From positions 310,001 through 374,000 of the forward strand of contig PACZ01000024.1 in the NCBI GenBank assembly GCA_002700305.1: a stretch of DNA of 64,000 nucleotides, read 5' to 3'. Made by a program: the position numbers and the translations under genes. Of this stretch, positions 37,878 to 48,009 are shown piece by piece. Below the pieces are notes generated by a model, which was given only the letters and a program-made list of their open reading frames with translations, was not told where the DNA came from and did no database searches. Each line of letters begins with the position of its first letter. The first letter of the stretch is position 1. The DNA is from Hyphomonas sp. Its GTDB lineage: Bacteria > Pseudomonadota > Alphaproteobacteria > Caulobacterales > Hyphomonadaceae.

Positions 37878-39392
37878 GTGCAGCTAGCTCAGATCCTAAA
37901 GCGCCTGACGGGGCTCGTCCTGCTTGCGGTCGCCGCCTGTGCCTCCCCTTCATCGGCACAACCGGCTGATTTCCCGGAGGAAGACCCAGCCTGGCCGCGA
38001 ACAGAATTCACGATTTCAGATGGCGCAGCCGGGACAAAAGGCTTCAATACCCAACCTGCACGCAAGGAAGACTGGCCATTTTTCGCTGCCCTTCGCGGGA
38101 CGCGTGAAGGTGTCGTCACCTATGACTGCGGTGGTACGGCCATCTCGTCAGAATGGGTCCTGACAGCGGCGCACTGTGTGGAAGGTGCCTCGGCAAACGC
38201 ATCAGGGCGGTGGGAGCGGCCGGGCTCTGGCGAGCTGCAGATTGTGCTCGGCGCCAAAGACCTGACAGCCGTCACAAGCTCGAATGTCTATAACGCAATG
38301 GACGTACGGATCGCCCCCAGCTTCACGCGCGGTGGCCAGAACAAGGTTCCCGTGAATGACATCGCTCTGGTCCGTCTGGACAGGCCCTGGAACGGCCCCG
38401 TCGCACGGCTGTCCGCCAGCAGCGCGTCGGACGTCGACCGCTTCTTCGGCCCCGCCTACTTTGCCGGTTTCGGCAAGACGGACATGCGGCAGCAAAAGCC
38501 GGAGTCCTACACGTCAGCGGAAGGCCCCTTCGCCGCGTACACCAGCATTCTCGGCAATGCGATGATCCCGACGCGCAGCCCGGACGCCTGCAGCAATGAT
38601 TACGAAGTGGAGGCTTATGACAGCGCCAGCATGATCTGCGCCGGGTATGACACCGGAATCATCGACTCCTGCCAGGGCGACAGCGGCGGCCCGCTCATCG
38701 CCAGGGACTTCGCTGGCAGGGTCTACCAGATCGGCATTGTCAGCTTCGGGGAGAGCTGTGGCGTGCGGGGCAAGCCGGCTGTCTATACGCGCGTATCCGG
38801 CTTCAAGGATTTCGTGCTGTCCGTCGTGCCCGACGCCGCTTTCGTGGACGCCAAGCCGGAAAAGACCGTCTACATGACGAAAGCCGGGCTTGAAAACCTG
38901 ATCCGGACGCTCAAACCGGCTGAAGGCAAAATAGGTATCCGCATCAATGACGGCGCTTCGGTGTTCCGGTCCGGGGAGCGGGTCCGGATCTTTGTCGACC
39001 CTTCGATAAAGGGCCGCCTCTGGGTCTTTGATCTCGATCCGTCCGGCACCGTCAGCTGCCTCTTCCCCTGCAATGCGGGCGAAGTCGACACGGCACTTGT
39101 CGAGCCCGGCCAGTCTGTCGTTCTGCCACCCGGAGGGGTCTCGATCAGCGTGTCACCGCCGACCGTACCGGGCAAAAGCACGCTGGCCGCGTTCGTCCTG
39201 CCGGAACGCATGGCCCTTATCGGCGATACGCTGCCCGACCTCAGCCGCACCAAGGGGCCGATCAGGACGGTGTGGCAGTCTTATTCCGACATCCTCGTGT
39301 TCGAAGTCCGGGACGCCATGTCAGATTCCTCCCCTTCCGATCCCTATGCCAATACCGGCATGGGCTTGGTCACATATAGCGTCAGCGAGTGA
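37878..39392 (+). CDS. Trypsin-like serine protease, predicted lipoprotein, with C-terminal extra domain
   Basis: Chymotrypsin-fold (S1) protease of 504 residues. The start is GTG at 37878 with GGAAG upstream. A lipoprotein signal ends at Cys21 (VAAC). The catalytic triad is His99 (TAAHC), Asp161 (NDIALVRL) and Ser269 (GDSGGPL). Asp263, six residues before the Ser, is the trypsin-type specificity residue, so cleavage after Lys or Arg is expected. The last 170 residues are not protease: SGERVRIFVDPSIKGRLWVF, then LFPCNAG and LPPGGVSISVSPPTVPGKST, resembling DUF4384-type beta domains. A close paralogue follows eight bases downstream. Likely anchored at the periplasmic or outer face of a membrane. 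Confidence 0.9.
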   Translation: MQLAQILKRLTGLVLLAVAACASPSSAQPADFPEEDPAWPRTEFTISDGAAGTKGFNTQPARKEDWPFFAALRGTREGVVTYDCGGTAISSEWVLTAAHCVEGASANASGRWERPGSGELQIVLGAKDLTAVTSSNVYNAMDVRIAPSFTRGGQNKVPVNDIALVRLDRPWNGPVARLSASSASDVDRFFGPAYFAGFGKTDMRQQKPESYTSAEGPFAAYTSILGNAMIPTRSPDACSNDYEVEAYDSASMICAGYDTGIIDSCQGDSGGPLIARDFAGRVYQIGIVSFGESCGVRGKPAVYTRVSGFKDFVLSVVPDAAFVDAKPEKTVYMTKAGLENLIRTLKPAEGKIGIRINDGASVFRSGERVRIFVDPSIKGRLWVFDLDPSGTVSCLFPCNAGEVDTALVEPGQSVVLPPGGVSISVSPPTVPGKSTLAAFVLPERMALIGDTLPDLSRTKGPIRTVWQSYSDILVFEVRDAMSDSSPSDPYANTGMGLVTYSVSE

Positions 39393-39400
39393 GTCCCGTG

Positions 39401-40903
39401 ATGAAGAGTTTCCTGCGCCTGTCTGTTGTCATTGCTGCAGTTCTGGGGCTTGCAACGGCATGCCAGACACGGCCTGACGACGCCCCGAGCGAGGCGCAAC
39501 TCGCATGGACCAGTACGCTGGACGCAGATGCCCGCGCCTCTGACCGCATCGTCAACGGAGACCGCTCCACGCTGGCGCAGTGGCCGTATATCGCGGTTCT
39601 GCGGCATGAGACGCGAAGCGGCCGGCTGCAGTATTTCTGCGGCGGCACATTCGTCGCCCGCCGCTGGGTGCTGACCGCAGCGCATTGTTTCGAAGGGGAA
39701 ACCCGCAGACTGGAGGACCGATGGGAGTGGAGTCCCCGCGCAAAACTCGAAGTCGTCGGCGGCACGGACGACCTCGGCGCCGGTGACGGAACCGTGTTTG
39801 AAGTGGACTCCGTCATGATCCATCCGGACTATAAGCCGACTATGGAGGTCTCACCCGGTGTCTGGGAGGGCTCCGAGAATGACGTTGCACTGGTCCGGAT
39901 CGGACGCACATGGACCGGCCAGCTGGCCCGACTCTCATCCGGCGGCCCATCCGACAGCGACGCGAATGGCGCCCGCGCCTTCGTGGCCGGTTTCGGGAAG
40001 CAGGCAGATTCCGGCGCGCAGGCGAGGCTGGAGACATTCCGCATCGGCGCCACTGACCGCACGGGTCAGGCCGGTTCGCGCTACCTCTACCACGCTATGC
40101 TGCCCATGAAGCCGCCGGAGGTCTGCGGCGCGCAATATGCGGATCTGGCCTATGACGGCAGCACGCAGATCTGCGCCGGCCGCAAGTTCGGCGGCACCGA
40201 CAGCTGCCAGGGCGACAGCGGCGGCCCGCTGGTCGCACTGGATGCGAGTGAGCGCACCTATCAGGTCGGCATTGTCAGCTACGGTTTCGAATGCGCTGCA
40301 GCGAAATCAGAAGGCGTCTACACCCGTGTCTCCCCCTATCGCGACTGGATCGAGACGACCGCGCGCGGTGCGATGTTCGTGGATGCAGATCCCGAGCAGG
40401 TATTCGTGGCGACGGCCGAAACCATGGAAGCCATGGCCCGGGTGCTGGCCCCGACCAGCGACCAGATAGACCTGTCCGTCACGCAGGAAGGCGAAGGAGG
40501 CAATGCCGCACTGAACATAGCGGTGACGCCCAAGATCGACGGGCGGCTCATTGTCTTCGAACTCGAGCATTCAGGCCGGATCAACACCTACTTTCCAAAC
40601 GACCGGACGCCGGAGGAAAATGCCATTGTCAAAGCCGGGCAAACCGTCCGCCTGCCGGAAGTTCCGTGGATGGTCATCCCCCCGGCAGAAGGCGGCGCCA
40701 CCATCTATGCTTTCGTCATTCCGGAAAGCGTTGCCTTCGCCGGTGACCTTCTGCCAACGCCAGCGCGGATGCGGACCGTCGCCGAAGAGGCGCAGCCGGA
40801 ACGGGAGCCCATCGACTTTGCAACCCGCATGCTGACGGAAGTCGCCAACCGATCCAGTGAAGGTGGCCTGTCAGATTGGGCTGCGGCGACCGCGACTTAC
40901 TGA
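39401..40903 (+). CDS. Trypsin-like serine protease, paralogue of the preceding gene
   Basis: Second S1 protease, 500 residues from the ATG at 39401, with signal and lipobox ending at Cys21 (ATAC). Triad: His95 (TAAHC), Asp161 (ENDVALVRI) and Ser273 (GDSGGPL); Asp267 again predicts trypsin-like specificity. Unlike its neighbour it has RIVNG at residues 49-53, the activation cleavage site of trypsinogens, so it is probably made as a zymogen. The neighbour may activate it, which is inference. The C-terminal domain matches that of the upstream gene (IAVTPKIDGRLIVFELEHSG, then TYFPN and VRLPEVPWMVIPPAEGGATI). Its last seven bases overlap the end of the convergent lipoprotein gene. Confidence 0.9.
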   Translation: MKSFLRLSVVIAAVLGLATACQTRPDDAPSEAQLAWTSTLDADARASDRIVNGDRSTLAQWPYIAVLRHETRSGRLQYFCGGTFVARRWVLTAAHCFEGETRRLEDRWEWSPRAKLEVVGGTDDLGAGDGTVFEVDSVMIHPDYKPTMEVSPGVWEGSENDVALVRIGRTWTGQLARLSSGGPSDSDANGARAFVAGFGKQADSGAQARLETFRIGATDRTGQAGSRYLYHAMLPMKPPEVCGAQYADLAYDGSTQICAGRKFGGTDSCQGDSGGPLVALDASERTYQVGIVSYGFECAAAKSEGVYTRVSPYRDWIETTARGAMFVDADPEQVFVATAETMEAMARVLAPTSDQIDLSVTQEGEGGNAALNIAVTPKIDGRLIVFELEHSGRINTYFPNDRTPEENAIVKAGQTVRLPEVPWMVIPPAEGGATIYAFVIPESVAFAGDLLPTPARMRTVAEEAQPEREPIDFATRMLTEVANRSSEGGLSDWAAATATY

Positions 40904-42452: not shown

Positions 42453-42470
42453 TTTCAACAAGCGTTGAAA
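42453..42470. promoter_or_regulatory. Operator O1 of the TetR-type regulator
   Basis: TTTCAAC-AAGC-GTTGAAA, a perfect inverted repeat with a four-base spacer, 48 bases before the TonB receptor start. The 19-base string TTCAACAAGCGTTGAAATT (42454-42472) recurs exactly, on the other strand, at 45693-45711 upstream of the hydrolase gene. That makes a specific binding site very likely; the assignment to the TetR gene between them is inference from position. Confidence 0.75.
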
Positions 42471-42473
42471 TTA

Positions 42474-42490
42474 CTCAACAATCGTTGAAG
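42474..42490. promoter_or_regulatory. Operator O2, second copy beside O1
   Basis: CTCAAC-AATC-GTTGAAG has the same arms as O1 (TCAAC and GTTGA). Its centre lies 20 bases from that of O1, two turns of the helix, so two regulator dimers could bind on the same face. Confidence 0.6.
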
Positions 42491-42518
42491 TGACGCGATC
42501 CATCAGGGAGGAATTAGG

Positions 42519-44804
42519 ATGCACCCGAAAACCAGACTCGCATTGTATGCGCTCGCCGCGACGGCCTTGACCCCCGTTATGCCCGCCTGGGCACAGGACA
42601 CCGGCGATCAGGAAGACACGACTCGCAAACTGGGGCCCGTCACGGTTACCGCGCAACGGCGCGAAGAAGACCTTCTGGACGTGCCCCTGTCCGTCACAGC
42701 CATCGGCTCCGAACGGCTGGAACTCACCGGCGCGGTCGATATCACCTCCATCCAGCGCTCCACTCCGAACGCCACGATTGAAGTCGCACGCGGATCGAAC
42801 TCGACGCTGATCGCCTTCATCCGCGGTGTCGGCCAGCAGGACCCGCTCTGGGGCTTCGAGCCCGGCGTCGGTCTCTATGTCGATGACGTCTACATCGCCC
42901 GCCCGCAGGGCGCGATCCTCGACATTTTCGACGTCGAGCGTGTTGAAGTTCTGCGCGGCCCGCAAGGCACGCTTTATGGACGCAACACAATTGGCGGCGC
43001 GATCAAATATGTGACGAAGCCGCTGGGCGGCGAACCGGACCTGAAGGTCAAAGCCAATCTCGGCAGCTACAGCCAGGCCGACGTCATCGTATCCGGCTCC
43101 ACGCCGCTCAGCGACACGTTCGCCGTTGGCGGCGCCATCGCGAAGTACACGCGAGACGGTTACGGCAAGAACCTCAATACGGGCGCTGAGCATTACAACA
43201 AGGACCTGCTGGCCTATCGCCTCAGCGCCGAATGGACCCCGACAGACGATTTCTCGCTCCGGTTCGCTTATGACAAGTCTGAAGACGACTCCAATGCGAA
43301 ACACGGCCATCGCCTCCTTCCGAGTGCAGACGGCACGATCCCGGTTACCAGCGATGTTTACGACACCCGCGCCGGTATTGGTGACGACAACTCAGTCGAG
43401 ACGGAAGGCTACTCTCTGACGGCTCAGTGGGACGTGAACGACATCGTCACCCTGAAATCGATCACGGCCTATCGTGAAGGCTCCACCATTACGCCCATCG
43501 ACTTCGACGCCCTGCCTCAGCCGGACTTCGATGTGCCTGCGTACTACAATGATGATCAGTTCTCGCAGGAATTCCAGCTTCTCTACAATAACGGCCCGCT
43601 GAGCGGCGTTGCCGGCATTTACTACCTGGATGGCAATGCTGACGGCGCCTTTGACGTCATCCTCAGCTCCCTTGGCCTCTCGATCTACCAGGGGGGCGCG
43701 CAGGAGAAAGAGAACTTCTCCATCTATGGCGACTTCACCTACGAACTGAACGACAAGTGGAGCGTGTCGCTTGGCGGCCGCTACACCGAAGACAAGACGA
43801 CGGCTGACGTTCTCCGTGAAGCTTGGCTTGGTCTCGGAACAGGGTCGTTCGATCCGTCGAACACGACGTCCGTTTTCCTCGTCACCCAGACCGACTATCA
43901 GGGCGTCGAGCGGAAGGACGACCAGTTCACGCCACGCGTGTCCGTATCTTACAAGCCGACTGACGACCTGAACCTCTACGCGACCTACGCACAGGGCTTC
44001 AAGGCAGGCGGCTTCGACCCGCGAGCCCGTGAAGACCTCGACCCGACCGGCCTCTCCCGCCAGGGCTTTGGCCCGGAACAGGTCGACTCCTACGAGTTGG
44101 GGATGAAAGGCTCGTTCTTCGATGACAGCCTCCTGCTCAACACGGCAGTGTTCTTTGCGGACTATACGGATCAGCAGATCACCGTTCAGAGCGGCGCAGA
44201 CACCGACAATGACGGCGTGAACGACACGTTCGTATCGTCCGTGTTCAACGCTGGCGCGTCCGAATACAAAGGCCTGGAAATCGAGGGCACCTGGTTTGCC
44301 ACCGACAACCTGACCCTGTTCGCAACGCTCGGCTATATCGACGCTCAGATCAATGAGATCCTGTCTGGCGGCGTCAACGTCGCCGACGCGTTCGTGACGC
44401 AGAACACGCCGGAACTGCAGGGCCAGATCTCTGCGAACTACAACTATGACCTGGGCGCAGACCGCGGCGAACTCTCTCTGACCGGTACAGTCTCCGGCCG
44501 TGACGAGTACTACCTGTTCAACGTTCCGAACGAAGGCTTCCCGGCCGGGCAGAGCGCCATCTTCCCGGGTGGCGGTCCGAAACTGGATCCGTCTGGCTAC
44601 TACCTGTTCGATCTCAGCGCTGTCTGGACGTCGCCCACTGGCAAGTACCGCGTCGGCCTGCATGGCCGGAACCTGACGGACGAAGAATACCGCGTGGCAG
44701 CCTACAACTTCGTCACGCCGAGCCAGCTCGGCCTCGACTCTGCCTATTCGGCCTTCTACGGCCCACCGCGGACCTTCACTGTTTCGCTGTCAGCTGACTT
44801 CTAA
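42519..44804 (+). CDS. TonB-dependent receptor
   Basis: Outer-membrane active transporter of 761 residues. A signal peptide (ALYALAATALTPVMPAWA) is followed by a TonB box region (GPVTVTAQRREE). The plug has VPLSVTAIGSERLELTGAVD, FIRGVGQQDPLWGFEPGVGL and VEVLRGPQGTLYGRNTIGGA. The beta-barrel follows and ends in GPPRTFTVSLSADF with the terminal Phe. The plug is of the type common in sphingomonads and Hyphomonas for plant or organic compounds; no siderophore link is seen. Expression should be controlled by the two operators upstream. It ends at a terminator lying inside the 3' end of the convergent tetR gene. Confidence 0.95.
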   Translation: MHPKTRLALYALAATALTPVMPAWAQDTGDQEDTTRKLGPVTVTAQRREEDLLDVPLSVTAIGSERLELTGAVDITSIQRSTPNATIEVARGSNSTLIAFIRGVGQQDPLWGFEPGVGLYVDDVYIARPQGAILDIFDVERVEVLRGPQGTLYGRNTIGGAIKYVTKPLGGEPDLKVKANLGSYSQADVIVSGSTPLSDTFAVGGAIAKYTRDGYGKNLNTGAEHYNKDLLAYRLSAEWTPTDDFSLRFAYDKSEDDSNAKHGHRLLPSADGTIPVTSDVYDTRAGIGDDNSVETEGYSLTAQWDVNDIVTLKSITAYREGSTITPIDFDALPQPDFDVPAYYNDDQFSQEFQLLYNNGPLSGVAGIYYLDGNADGAFDVILSSLGLSIYQGGAQEKENFSIYGDFTYELNDKWSVSLGGRYTEDKTTADVLREAWLGLGTGSFDPSNTTSVFLVTQTDYQGVERKDDQFTPRVSVSYKPTDDLNLYATYAQGFKAGGFDPRAREDLDPTGLSRQGFGPEQVDSYELGMKGSFFDDSLLLNTAVFFADYTDQQITVQSGADTDNDGVNDTFVSSVFNAGASEYKGLEIEGTWFATDNLTLFATLGYIDAQINEILSGGVNVADAFVTQNTPELQGQISANYNYDLGADRGELSLTGTVSGRDEYYLFNVPNEGFPAGQSAIFPGGGPKLDPSGYYLFDLSAVWTSPTGKYRVGLHGRNLTDEEYRVAAYNFVTPSQLGLDSAYSAFYGPPRTFTVSLSADF

Positions 44805-44886
44805 GCGGATGGCGGGGGCAGCTTTCTGTCTCCGCCACCGATCATGACTTCCGTTATCGCTCAGATACGGACGCGTCATTCCTCCT

Positions 44887-45588
44887 TCAACGACGCGCGG
44901 ACGGCCCTTTGCGGGGCCGTCCTTTTTTATCCGCTGTCATCTGCTTACGGAATGCTTCAAATCCGGCCGTGGTGAACTGCACCATGTGCTCGCAGGCATC
45001 CATCAGGTCGCTGGAACGGCACGAGCCGCCAGAGAGATGATCGATACGTCCGGTCTGGGCGAATGTCAGCGTCAGGGCGCCTGACAGGCAATGATAGCCC
45101 CAGTACAGATCCCGGTCCTCAACGCCCGGCAGCGCGAGACGGAGCGCGTCCATGAAGCGGTAAACGAGCGGATCGAAGAACTGGGTCATCAACTGCCCGC
45201 CCCATTCGGGCGAGTTGTTCACATAAGCGATGAGGGCGTAATAGTTTTTCCAGCCCTCTTCCTCGACCTGCTCTCCCGTCAGCATCGGCTCGAGATAGGC
45301 GCGGATAATCGCTTCGACGCTCGGCGCCTGATCGCTTTCCACAAGACACTGGTCCAACTGATCCAGACGGGCCTTGTTGAGAATTTCTGCGCGCCGGAAC
45401 AGAACCGCATCGAACAGATCGCGCTTCGGGCCGAAATAGTAATTGGGCAAAGCGAGGTCGACCCCCGCACGCCTGGCGATTGCCCGCAATGTCACGCCGT
45501 CATAGCCATGCTTTGCGAACTGTTCCTCAGCCGCATCGAGAATAGCGGTCCGCCGGTCCAGTCGGGGTTCTGTTTTGTTCACACTCAT
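44887..45588 (-). CDS. TetR family transcription regulator
   Basis: Repressor-type regulator of 233 residues. The N-terminal helix-turn-helix is RTAILDAAEEQFAKHGYDGV, TLRAIARRAGVDLALPNYYF, then GPKRDLFDAVLFRRAEIL. The C-terminal ligand domain contains SVEAIIRAYLEPML and WGGQLMTQFFDPLVYRFMDA, and resembles the TetR_C group that carries a second-domain dimer helix (YWGYHCLSGALTLTFAQTGR). It sits between the TonB receptor and hydrolase genes, and matched operators flank both. A degenerate operator overlaps its own start codon, which predicts autoregulation. The ligand is probably the substrate or product of the hydrolase; this is inference. Confidence 0.9.
   Translation of the reverse strand: MSVNKTEPRLDRRTAILDAAEEQFAKHGYDGVTLRAIARRAGVDLALPNYYFGPKRDLFDAVLFRRAEILNKARLDQLDQCLVESDQAPSVEAIIRAYLEPMLTGEQVEEEGWKNYYALIAYVNNSPEWGGQLMTQFFDPLVYRFMDALRLALPGVEDRDLYWGYHCLSGALTLTFAQTGRIDHLSGGSCRSSDLMDACEHMVQFTTAGFEAFRKQMTADKKGRPRKGPSARR
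44899..44928 (+). terminator. Terminator of the TonB receptor, inside the tetR 3' end
   Basis: GGACGGCCC, six bases, GGGCCGTCC, then six T residues on the plus strand. It lies 95 bases past the receptor stop and overlaps the last codons of the convergent tetR gene (GRPRKGP). It has no T run on the minus strand, so it works one way. Confidence 0.85.
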
Positions 45589-45604
45589 ACAACGCTAGTA
45601 GACT
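45587..45604. promoter_or_regulatory. Degenerate operator O3 over the tetR start codon
   Basis: ATACAACGCTAGTAGACT matches 13 of 18 bases of the operator TTTCAACGCTTGTTGAAT found at 45695, including the core CAACGCT. It covers the tetR ATG (45586-45588). A weak site here would allow the regulator to limit its own synthesis. Confidence 0.4.
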
Positions 45605-45692
45605 GCACACTCAGGGAGATCAACGATACCCCTAGGTGACATACCCAGGGCCCTCACCAAGCTTATGCTTGCCATCTCCTCAGGAATAGTCC

Positions 45693-45711
45693 AATTTCAA
45701 CGCTTGTTGAA
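45693..45711. promoter_or_regulatory. Operator O4 upstream of the hydrolase-MFS operon
   Basis: AATTTCAACGCTTGTTGAA is the exact reverse complement of the 19-base operator at 42454-42472. It lies 146 bases before the hydrolase start and 105 bases from the tetR start on the other strand, so it can serve both divergent promoters. A further short palindrome, ATACC-N5-GGTAT, is at 45721-45735. Confidence 0.75.
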
Positions 45712-45856
45712 TAAATAGAAATACCGATCAGGTATCAAGAAGCAGGGGAAGAGATGTGAGCGACGCTGTTCGGCCACTTACAGGGCATCCAGCTGATTTG
45801 CTGCCATGTGACTATCGGCAGGCTCAGGGCAGAACGCCCCTGCCAGGGAACCGCCC

Positions 45857-46723
45857 ATGACAGATGACATTTATTACCGCTCTACGGATGGGTTGAATCT
45901 CTATGCGAAGCGCTACGGCGCAGCAGATGCACCGCTCAGCATACTGTGCATGCACGGCCTGACCCGGAATCACAAGGATTTCGAACCGATGATCGCGGAC
46001 CTGCCGGACCGCTATCAGTTCATTGCCATCGATGTGCGAGGCCGCGGCCTTTCAGACCGGGACCCGAACGCAGAGAACTATTCTCCCGCTGTCTATGCCG
46101 GCGATATGGCTGCCTTGCTGGACCATTTGAACCTGACGCGTGTTGCACTCATAGGAACATCGATGGGCGGACTGATGTCCATGATCATGATGAAGACCAT
46201 GCCGGAACGCATCAGCGGCGTTGTCCTGAACGATGTCGGCCCCGTCTTTGAGAAATCAGGACTGGACCGGATCGCCGCCTATACAAGTGACACCGAACCA
46301 AAGGCCGGGTGGGACGACGCGGCCAGATCCGTCGGGGAAGTTCAGGCAGAGATCTTCCCCGACTATGGCCCGGAGCAGTGGATGGCCTTTGCCCGCCGCA
46401 CCTATCGGGAACTGGATGACGGACGCGTGGCGCTTGACTACGATCCGGCCATCACCCGCACAGTCGGACAAGTGCGCCCCGGCCTCCTGACACGGATCGC
46501 CATGTGGAAGCTCTACAAGGGAATGTCGAAGGTCCCGCTTCTTCTGATCCGTGGAGAAACATCCGATATCCTGTCGGCAAAGACTGCCGCAAAGATGATC
46601 AAAAAACACCCTGACGCATCCCTCGTTACCGTTCCCCGCATAGGACACGCCCCCATTCTCGACGAACCGGAAGCCCTGAAAGGCATCCGGACCTTCCTGG
46701 CCAATATAGAAGCTCGCACATGA
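45857..46723 (+). CDS. Alpha/beta hydrolase
   Basis: Serine hydrolase of 288 residues without a signal peptide, so cytoplasmic. The triad is Ser102 (GTSMGG nucleophile elbow), Asp237 (RGETSDILS) and His264 (RIGHAPILDEP). The oxyanion segment is MHGLTRN and the strand-helix after it is IAIDVRGRGLSDRDP. It would cleave an ester, lactone or C-C bond; the length and the RGRGLSDR motif fit the esterase/lactonase and meta-cleavage hydrolase branch. AGGGAA precedes the ATG. The MFS gene overlaps by ATGA. Operator O4 upstream ties it to the TonB receptor, so the imported compound is the likely substrate. Confidence 0.92.
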   Translation: MTDDIYYRSTDGLNLYAKRYGAADAPLSILCMHGLTRNHKDFEPMIADLPDRYQFIAIDVRGRGLSDRDPNAENYSPAVYAGDMAALLDHLNLTRVALIGTSMGGLMSMIMMKTMPERISGVVLNDVGPVFEKSGLDRIAAYTSDTEPKAGWDDAARSVGEVQAEIFPDYGPEQWMAFARRTYRELDDGRVALDYDPAITRTVGQVRPGLLTRIAMWKLYKGMSKVPLLLIRGETSDILSAKTAAKMIKKHPDASLVTVPRIGHAPILDEPEALKGIRTFLANIEART

Positions 46724-48009
46724 CCGCTGTCACGCCTACCGCTCCCGCCACCGCCATTCCCGGCCGCGCCTGGGTCCTTGCCGTACTGACTCTGACCTAC
46801 ACGTTCAATCATATTGATCGTCAGGTCCTGGTGATCCTGCTGGAGCCGATCAAGGCAGAGCTGAACCTGCGTGACGGGGACCTTGGTATGCTGACCGGCA
46901 TCGTGTTCGCCGGCTTTTACGCCACGCTTGGTATTCCGGTGGCGATGTGGGCCGACCGGGGCAACCGCCGGAACATCATTGCGCTCGCCCTGACAATCTG
47001 GTCGGCGATGACCGCGCTGTCCGGATTGGCCCAGACCTACTGGCAATTGCTGCTGGCACGCATGGGGGTTGGTGTTGGGGAAGCTGGCGGTACACCGCCT
47101 GCGACATCCATGATCGCGGACCTCTACCCGCCAAAGGAACGCGCCACAGCGATGGGCATTTACACGACCGGCATTGGCCTCGGCGTGATGGCTGGCTTCG
47201 CCCTTGGCGGAATCATCTACGAACATTTTGGCTGGCGCGCCGCTTTCTTCGTGGCCGGGGTTCCTGGCTTGTTGCTGGCATTACTTGTCCGCTTCACGGT
47301 GAAAGAGCCTGCGCGTGGCCTGGCCGACCAGCAGCAGGTGGAGGGGGATGCGCCGTCCTTCCCGGAAACGATCCGCTTTATCCTTGGTCAGTCGTCCTAT
47401 CTCTGGCTGCTGGCCGGATGCCTCCTGATCTGTATTTCCTCGAATGCGTTTCTCGTGTTCACCTCGGGCCACCTGCAGCGCACTTATGGCCTGACCCCCG
47501 GTGAAGTTTCCTTGCCGCTCGGCGTGCTCATTGGCGGTGTCGGCAGCGTAGGCGCTGTTGTACTGGGCGCAGTTTGCGACCGCCTGTCCGCAAAGGATAT
47601 GCGCTGGCGGCCGCTGATGATTGCGATCTGCGCAGGTCTTGCCCTGCCGTTTGCCTGGATGTTCCTGCACGCCCCGAATGTCTGGGCGGCCTATGCATGG
47701 AATCTGGTTCCGGCTTTCATCGGTCTTATTTATGCGAGCATCGCCTACACCGCGTCACAGGAACTGGTTCAGGTCCGCATGCGGTCTTTCGCATCAGCCT
47801 TCATGTTGTTCTGCCTGACGCTCATCGGTATCGGCGGTGGGCCCTGGATCGCAGGCGAGCTCAGCGATTATTTTGCGGCGCAAGGCGCACAGAATTCTCT
47901 CGCGAGATCCCTGGAAATGATGCTGATGTTCAATCTTGCATCCATCGCCTGCCTGCTCATGGCCACCCGCAACTACCGCCGCGACGCTGCGCGCGCCGCA
48001 GCAGCGTGA
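46720..48009 (+). CDS. MFS transporter, Spinster-like
   Basis: Inner-membrane major facilitator of 429 residues with about 12 hydrophobic segments. Seen are TLTYTFNHIDRQVLVILLEP in helix 1, the loop motif ADRGNRRNIIALALTIWSAM (D-R-x-x-R-R) between helices 2 and 3, and GVGEAGGTPPATSMIADLYP in helix 4-5, the pattern of the Spinster-type group common in sphingomonads. It probably carries the compound taken up by the TonB receptor, or the product of the hydrolase, across the inner membrane; direction is unknown. It is translationally coupled to the hydrolase by ATGA and ends the operon. Confidence 0.92.
   Translation: MTAVTPTAPATAIPGRAWVLAVLTLTYTFNHIDRQVLVILLEPIKAELNLRDGDLGMLTGIVFAGFYATLGIPVAMWADRGNRRNIIALALTIWSAMTALSGLAQTYWQLLLARMGVGVGEAGGTPPATSMIADLYPPKERATAMGIYTTGIGLGVMAGFALGGIIYEHFGWRAAFFVAGVPGLLLALLVRFTVKEPARGLADQQQVEGDAPSFPETIRFILGQSSYLWLLAGCLLICISSNAFLVFTSGHLQRTYGLTPGEVSLPLGVLIGGVGSVGAVVLGAVCDRLSAKDMRWRPLMIAICAGLALPFAWMFLHAPNVWAAYAWNLVPAFIGLIYASIAYTASQELVQVRMRSFASAFMLFCLTLIGIGGGPWIAGELSDYFAAQGAQNSLARSLEMMLMFNLASIACLLMATRNYRRDAARAAAA

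Follow-up and report, generated by a model that had tools for sequence, protein, structure and literature searches.

A TetR-type regulator and its putative operators at a TonB receptor locus and an unlinked scoAB operon in Hyphomonas

Operator sites at the window locus and ahead of scoAB

The window analysed here is a stretch of 64,000 nucleotides from a Hyphomonas sp. genome (GCA_002700305.1, contig PACZ01000024.1, positions 310,001 to 374,000). It encodes a TetR regulator of 233 aa (44887..45588, minus strand; TetR_N and TetR_C_30 domains), and this work concerns the palindromic sites through which that regulator may control its neighbours and a distant operon. On one side of tetR lies a gene for a TonB-dependent receptor of 761 aa (42519..44804, plus strand), with the Plug and TonB_dep_Rec_b-barrel domains over cut-off. 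On the other side are genes for an alpha/beta hydrolase of 288 aa (45857..46723, plus strand), with a GTSMGG nucleophile motif and 3bwx as its nearest structure, and for an MFS transporter of 429 aa (46720..48009, plus strand; MFS_1). A leader open reading frame (ORF) of 34 codons (45756..45860, plus strand) starts with GTG, and its stop codon overlaps the ATG of the hydrolase gene.

A reading of the sequence alone had pointed to a 19-mer shared by the two sides of the locus. Indeed, TTCAACAAGCGTTGAAATT occurs at 42454-42472 (plus strand) with an exact reversed copy at 45693-45711 (minus strand), and no further copy was found elsewhere in the window at up to three mismatches (0.01 expected in shuffles). 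The operators, given here without strand, can be delimited as O1 (TTTCAACAAGCGTTGAAA, 42453..42470), a perfect palindrome preceding the receptor gene, and O2 (TTTCAACGCTTGTTGAAT, 45695..45712), in the divergent tetR/hydrolase intergenic region; the receptor and hydrolase-MFS promoters share them, as had been described. A tandem site, O1b (ACTCAACAATCGTTGAAG, 42473..42490), repeats the TCAAC/GTTGA arms of O1 at a centre-to-centre distance of 20 bp, again in agreement with the first description. O1 is conserved in a genome of the window's species (G150) and in the relatives G033, G036 and G028, the last three of which also retain O2.

A further copy, said to match 13 of 18 bases over the tetR start codon (45587-45604), did not hold up. 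It matches 9 of the 14 specified bases, the remaining 4 of the 18 being free spacer, and the window holds 48 places with exactly five mismatches and 59 with five or fewer, this copy included. In G028 the tetR-start stretch has diverged while the real operator is retained. The weak copy is a chance match. Autoregulation needs no extra site, because O2 already sits in the tetR/hydrolase intergenic region.

The exact pattern TTCAACN4GTTGAA occurs at three places in the 3.52-Mb genome (0.06 expected from base composition), namely the two window sites and C13:40642-40657, on a different contig. The motif is therefore rare, but not restricted to this locus. The third site (C13:40641-40658, TTTCAACGCTTGTTGAAA) has the spacer of O1 and O2 once strand is taken into account; its end lies 116 bp upstream of the scoA ATG. 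The regulon, first thought to be self-contained, would thus include an unlinked operator ahead of scoAB, its most conserved target. Near matches at C17:11511 (one mismatch) and on C6, C15, C36 and C37 (two mismatches each) have spacers that do not fit the R-N-N-Y form described below and were discounted as targets; a reversed-pattern control in the same genome also gave five near matches. Scans of the three operator regions returned no sigma-70-type promoter match. A terminator-like stem precedes the scoAB operator (L001 1475-1495; 0.3 expected in shuffles).

ScoA and ScoB are subunits of a 3-oxoacid coenzyme A (CoA)-transferase, scoring 258 bits against a cut-off of 128.5 (TIGR02429) and 335.6 against 243.55 (TIGR02428), models that cover PcaIJ too. 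Among solved structures, ScoA is best matched by the SCOT subunit 3cdk; from such structure matches and from the gene context, we infer that acetoacetate is the substrate. With both subunits over curated cut-offs, what differs here from a known SCOT is the TetR-type operator upstream. Genes for 4-hydroxyphenylpyruvate dioxygenase and fumarylacetoacetate hydrolase (FAH) lie upstream of scoAB and an aromatic aminotransferase gene lies downstream. Such a tyrosine-breakdown cluster yields acetoacetate, which ScoAB would activate by CoA transfer.

Joint presence and absence of regulator and operator

Among 150 related genomes, 78 had a protein matching the window TetR with an E value no higher than 1e-40, a count that takes in paralogues, and H. 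jannaschiana VP2 encodes a protein 99% identical to it. The pattern TTTCAACN4GTTGAA was found in 29 of the 41 genomes of the genus, and the reversed-pattern control gave one match across all 41. We then compared scoA loci according to whether the genome encodes the TetR. Within the genus, a site with at most two mismatches lay within 450 bp of scoA in 29/31 TetR-positive and 0/8 TetR-negative genomes (Fisher p 7e-7, uncorrected for relatedness). This count covers the 39 of 41 genomes with a usable scoA match, G001 having none and G027 a partial match only; G026 and G037, with TetR matches at paralogue level only, were scored as negative, and G150 was scored as positive without a protein search on the ground that its two sites are spaced as in the window. 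The two misses were examined afterwards. In G016 an exact site precedes a gene inserted between FAH and scoA, and in G022 ATTGAACAGGTGTTGAAA lies inside FAH, upstream of inserted DNA; both sites were found after the first count and were kept out of the 29/31.

Outside the genus, a site was present near scoA in 14 of 22 TetR-positive genomes compared to none of the 17 scoA loci of 16 TetR-negative genomes, where TetR matches of about 40-46% identity, or none, were scored as negative. No scoA match was found in G041 and G065, and the f2, f3 and f5 genomes were left out. Four of the misses (G086, G117, G125 and G140) have best sites with three mismatches, and at this threshold the contrast became 18/22 against 1/17. 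Both states occur within one genus, g4, in which the site accompanied two of three TetR-positive genomes (3/3 at three mismatches) and none of five TetR-negative ones (1/5 at three). These comparisons support the assignment of the sites to this TetR that had been made from the window alone: the sites probably act as its operators, being present and absent together with it.

The distinct sites from all fetched loci, off-target matches included, number 102 and give the consensus TTTCAAC-R-N-N-Y-GTTGAAA, with an R-N-N-Y spacer in 96; the exact sites G068:C38 and G054:C5 were left out of the fetched loci. Tandem sites recur at the receptor promoters of relatives, 16, 17 or 20 bp apart. The 20-bp spacing was seen in the window, G150, G036, G033, G028, G014 and G021, the 16-bp spacing in G086, G060, G084, G045 and G054, and the 17-bp spacing in G105 and G113. 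Five exact sites outside the genus (L213, L220, L222, L223 and L224) have a misfit spacer and no recurring neighbour gene, and were put down to chance.

Other exact sites have a fitting spacer, and their neighbour genes were read by eye. In G024, G039 and G038 (L152 1267, L153 1325 and L154 1257) such a site adjoins a VirD4/TraG-like gene, possibly a further target or a chance match. In G057, G042 and G062 (L205 3563, L207 3481 and L211 3454) it follows a hisG-like gene, and L205 and L207 encode an exported protein and a TonB-receptor-like protein beyond the site. One more lies near a folD-like gene in G055:C169 (L218 3471), where no recurring neighbour was seen.

A constant target, an interchangeable module and an operator inside FAH

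Seven Hyphomonas genomes (G002, G004, G005, G006, G007, G019 and G029) retain the TetR and have their only exact genomic site at scoAB; no receptor, hydrolase or MFS relative was detected in the 13 kb fetched from each. The site pattern of these genomes points to scoAB as the constant core target, with the receptor, hydrolase and MFS genes forming an accessory module. The operator is also retained at scoAB in six g3 genomes whose locus lacks a detected FAH gene, while three g8 genomes keep the FAH-scoAB order. In G045 and G054, scoAB lies beside tetR, behind a tandem operator, and is followed by an SDR gene. The G045 SDR protein exceeds the 3-hydroxybutyrate dehydrogenase cut-off (342.3 against 307.05 bits; PDB 3v2h, E 2e-87). 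In G060, the tandem operator separates the receptor gene from a divergent gene 65% identical to that of G045, while scoA lies elsewhere in the genome, without a site.

The module itself varies in composition. Between tetR and the hydrolase gene, G028 and G027 encode an AMP-binding acyl-CoA synthetase, in the position taken by the leader ORF in the window; the leader looks like the possible remnant of a deletion, although the comparison does not polarize the change. In the receptor tree, the window clade (G000, the window genome, with G033 and G028) joins G105, G113 and G117, from a different family of the order, with support 100/100. Its receptors are 64-69% identical to those three and 46-49% identical to other Hyphomonas receptors. 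The TetR of the window is placed with those of Hyphomonas G028 and G027. This would reflect replacement of the receptor beneath unchanged operators, or retention of an ancient duplicate. At L076 (G012) the TetR groups with genus g4 (G084, G086) and the receptor with Hyphomonas, as if parts of the module had been swapped separately. The window genome has on C20 (L069 6940-13604) another module that is built along similar lines and lacks this operator; the neighbours of its paralogous TetR_C_30 regulator are a receptor relative, a carboxylesterase and an AMP-binding enzyme.

In ten genomes, seven of Hyphomonas (G002, G005, G012, G015, G021, G029 and G034) and three of g8 (G047, G055 and G061), the operator lies within the 3' end of the FAH coding sequence, beginning 128 nt before the stop codon (L121, L124, L126, L131, L132, L133, L134, L215, L216 and L217). 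The FAH-scoA gap in the seven Hyphomonas genomes is only 5-11 bp. There FAH reads I-Q-Q-(A/L)-L, with codons ATT CAA CA(A/G) NNN TTG. Among 50 FAH genes, I-Q-Q was found in 10, (I/V)-E-(T/K) in 38, and I-E-Q with a degenerate site in 2 (G010 and G022). The operator is encoded with rare codons: in FAH, scoA and scoB of the ten genomes, the share of ATT among Ile codons is 21%, that of CAA among Gln codons 15% and that of TTG among Leu codons 3%. The conserved entity seems to be the DNA word rather than the FAH protein. The intragenic site may control an internal promoter, or act as a roadblock through which scoAB becomes independent of the tyrosine operon.

Regulator type, candidate inducers and significance

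In the TetR model (mean predicted local distance difference test (pLDDT) score 77), NicR2 was the closest fold (template modelling (TM) score 0.68-0.69 by query length), followed by PsrA PA3006 (0.60), and a profile search agreed with this ranking. NicR2 of Pseudomonas putida (PDB 5fgl, 5fhp), a catabolic TetR-type regulator, is about 26-28% identical in the fold alignment, and the nicotine breakdown genes are absent from this locus. PsrA regulons of gamma- and betaproteobacteria, as described in three reports (PMC10304680, PMC5343134, PMC3223726), share with this system the TetR family and the C-terminal domain type, a palindromic box with an AAC/GTT centre, and control of several unlinked operons, which there serve acyl metabolism. 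The window protein has the TetR_N and TetR_C_30 pair and scores 83 bits with the PsrA model NF053516, far under its cut-off of 300 bits. The PsrA box is given as G/CAAAC(N2-4)GTTTG/C (PMC10304680); TTCAAC-N4-GTTGAA has only the AAC-N4-GTT centre in common with it, the arms being TTCAAC here and CAAAC in PsrA. The target sets differ too, scoAB and an import module here, with no beta-oxidation set.

The gene set of the window locus, a receptor, an inner-membrane transporter, a degradative enzyme and a regulator, is that of a CUT locus. In the type case, the sux locus of Xanthomonas campestris (PMC1790865), a TonB receptor, an inner-membrane transporter and a cytoplasmic enzyme are controlled together by a local repressor. 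SuxR is of LacI/GalR type and the substrate is sucrose, whereas here the regulator is of TetR type, the hydrolase is esterase-like and the regulon includes an unlinked central-metabolism operon. TonB receptor genes have also been described as rising on loss of an IclR repressor (PMC13273656). In the openly licensed literature, outside which most subscription papers fall, we found no paper on this regulon, on TetR control of scoAB or on TonB uptake of 3-hydroxybutyrate oligomers.

Scans of five window proteins detected no carbohydrate-active enzyme. For the hydrolase model (mean pLDDT 87) the nearest structure was 3bwx, followed by 4ose and 3kxp; the names of its family and structure matches, and of the best 120 of 3301 database matches, were all generic. 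Neither this model nor that of the TetR points to a particular substrate or ligand. Elsewhere in the window (37878-40903), two adjacent ORFs of 504 residues, resembling trypsin-type serine proteases, appear by eye to be a tandem duplication.

The regulator is best read as a PsrA/NicR2-like repressor of the use of 3-oxo and 3-hydroxy acids (ketone bodies), with an optional TonB uptake module. We are confident that it binds the consensus and represses three promoter regions, those of the receptor, of tetR/hydrolase-MFS and of the unlinked scoAB operon, though such control is deduced from sequence. Ketone bodies are proposed as the inducer class because dehydrogenase-like genes adjoin operators or scoAB in G045, G054 and G060; the most likely inducer, somewhat favoured over the alternatives taken together, would be a small 3-oxo or 3-hydroxy acid, free or as a CoA ester, such as acetoacetate or 3-hydroxybutyrate. 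From the sites, their conservation, the co-occurrence and the gene families, all obtained by comparison, we infer binding, repression, inducer, imported substrate and direction of transport as follows. In the presence of the inducer the repressor would leave the DNA, and the receptor would take an ester or oligomer of a 3-oxo or 3-hydroxy acid across the outer membrane. Passage of the ester, the oligomer or its product through the inner membrane would fall to the MFS protein and release of the acid to the hydrolase, and ScoAB would transfer CoA, turning acetoacetate into acetoacetyl-CoA. The accessory uptake module would have been gained, lost and re-equipped under the same operator. Taken as a whole, this explanation seems to us a little more probable than its competitors combined.

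A more specific version is tentative and rather doubtful: the receptor would import 3-hydroxybutyrate oligomers or esters, for instance breakdown products of the polyhydroxybutyrate of other cells, the hydrolase would free the monomer and the TetR would sense acetoacetate or 3-hydroxybutyrate, coupling import to CoA activation, with the operator selected into the FAH coding sequence and altering that protein. A search for the polyhydroxybutyrate depolymerase family matched none of the 41 genomes, but its control matched nowhere, making the result uninformative.

Several observations weigh against the proposed regulon and its ketone-body inducer. The TetR-negative locus of G052 has a three-mismatch, non-palindromic match, scoA of G060, G097, G105 and G113 has no site within three mismatches, and seven more distant f2 loci (TetR 49-52% identical) have no such site near the TetR; the motif is therefore a property of closer clades. 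The genomes are related, and the counts are non-independent. The hydrolase gene went undetected in G012, G015 and G034, and cleavage is therefore non-essential to the module. A 3-hydroxybutyrate-dehydrogenase-like gene is present in 40 of the 41 genus genomes, and the copy on C48 in the window genome lacks an exact operator. The suggestion of a ketone-body inducer draws on scoAB everywhere and on dehydrogenase genes in three genomes.

The regulator might instead be a lipid sensor in the manner of PsrA, responding to a medium or long acyl group, with the receptor taking an acyl ester, the hydrolase freeing a fatty acid and scoAB included only since acetoacetate arises in general acyl and amino-acid breakdown. 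The TetR_C_30 domain, PsrA as the second-nearest fold and the resemblance of the AAC-N4-GTT centre to the PsrA box of PMC10304680 all fit this possibility, as do the acyl-CoA synthetase gene adjoining the hydrolase in G027 and G028, its 50-55% identical relatives in the G097, G105 and G113 clusters, and the receptor, the carboxylesterase and another AMP-binding enzyme encoded beside the paralogous TetR. However, no beta-oxidation gene has one of the three exact sites of the window genome, and the constant target is scoAB, whose G045 neighbour belongs to the 3-hydroxybutyrate dehydrogenase family. We regard a lipid ligand as possible, and clearly less probable than a 3-oxo or 3-hydroxy acid. 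Control by an intermediate of the homogentisate pathway is improbable: scoAB of the window genome does cluster with 4-hydroxyphenylpyruvate dioxygenase, FAH and aromatic aminotransferase genes, but the operator sits ahead of scoAB, past FAH or close to its end. It stays with scoAB in the six g3 genomes, G045 and G054, where scoAB is apart from any detected FAH, and the eight TetR-negative Hyphomonas genomes keep FAH beside scoA without it.

Siderophore uptake, by way of a receptor, a siderophore esterase and an MFS carrier, would account for a gene set that resembles siderophore loci, and TIGR01783 (TonB-dependent siderophore receptor) is the receptor's best NCBIfam model by E-value. Its score is under cut-off (179.6 of 223.5 bits), and co-regulation with scoAB and a dehydrogenase gene misfits iron, making this reading very unlikely. 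Just as remote is the idea of the sites serving a different regulator, such as the paralogue at C20. That protein is 44% identical and present in the same genome, and the link between TetR and site comes from comparison of sequences; yet it is absence of the window-type TetR, rather than of the paralogue, that goes with absence of the sites. G026 and G037 match the TetR at paralogue level only and lack a site, and none occurs in the 14 kb around the paralogue.

The repressor of 3-oxo and 3-hydroxy acid use proposed here would thus be of an ordinary kind, in a regulon that appears real and wider than first thought; the physiological role would be new and is plausible, and an operator within a gene is unusual. 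It offers a clean case in which regulator and operator are present or absent together, the target is constant and the import module is interchangeable. The intragenic operator would dictate amino-acid replacements in the upstream gene, and FAH protein alignments would therefore partly record regulatory selection. An operator shared with enzymes of known reaction may give uncharacterised TonB receptors a testable substrate class.

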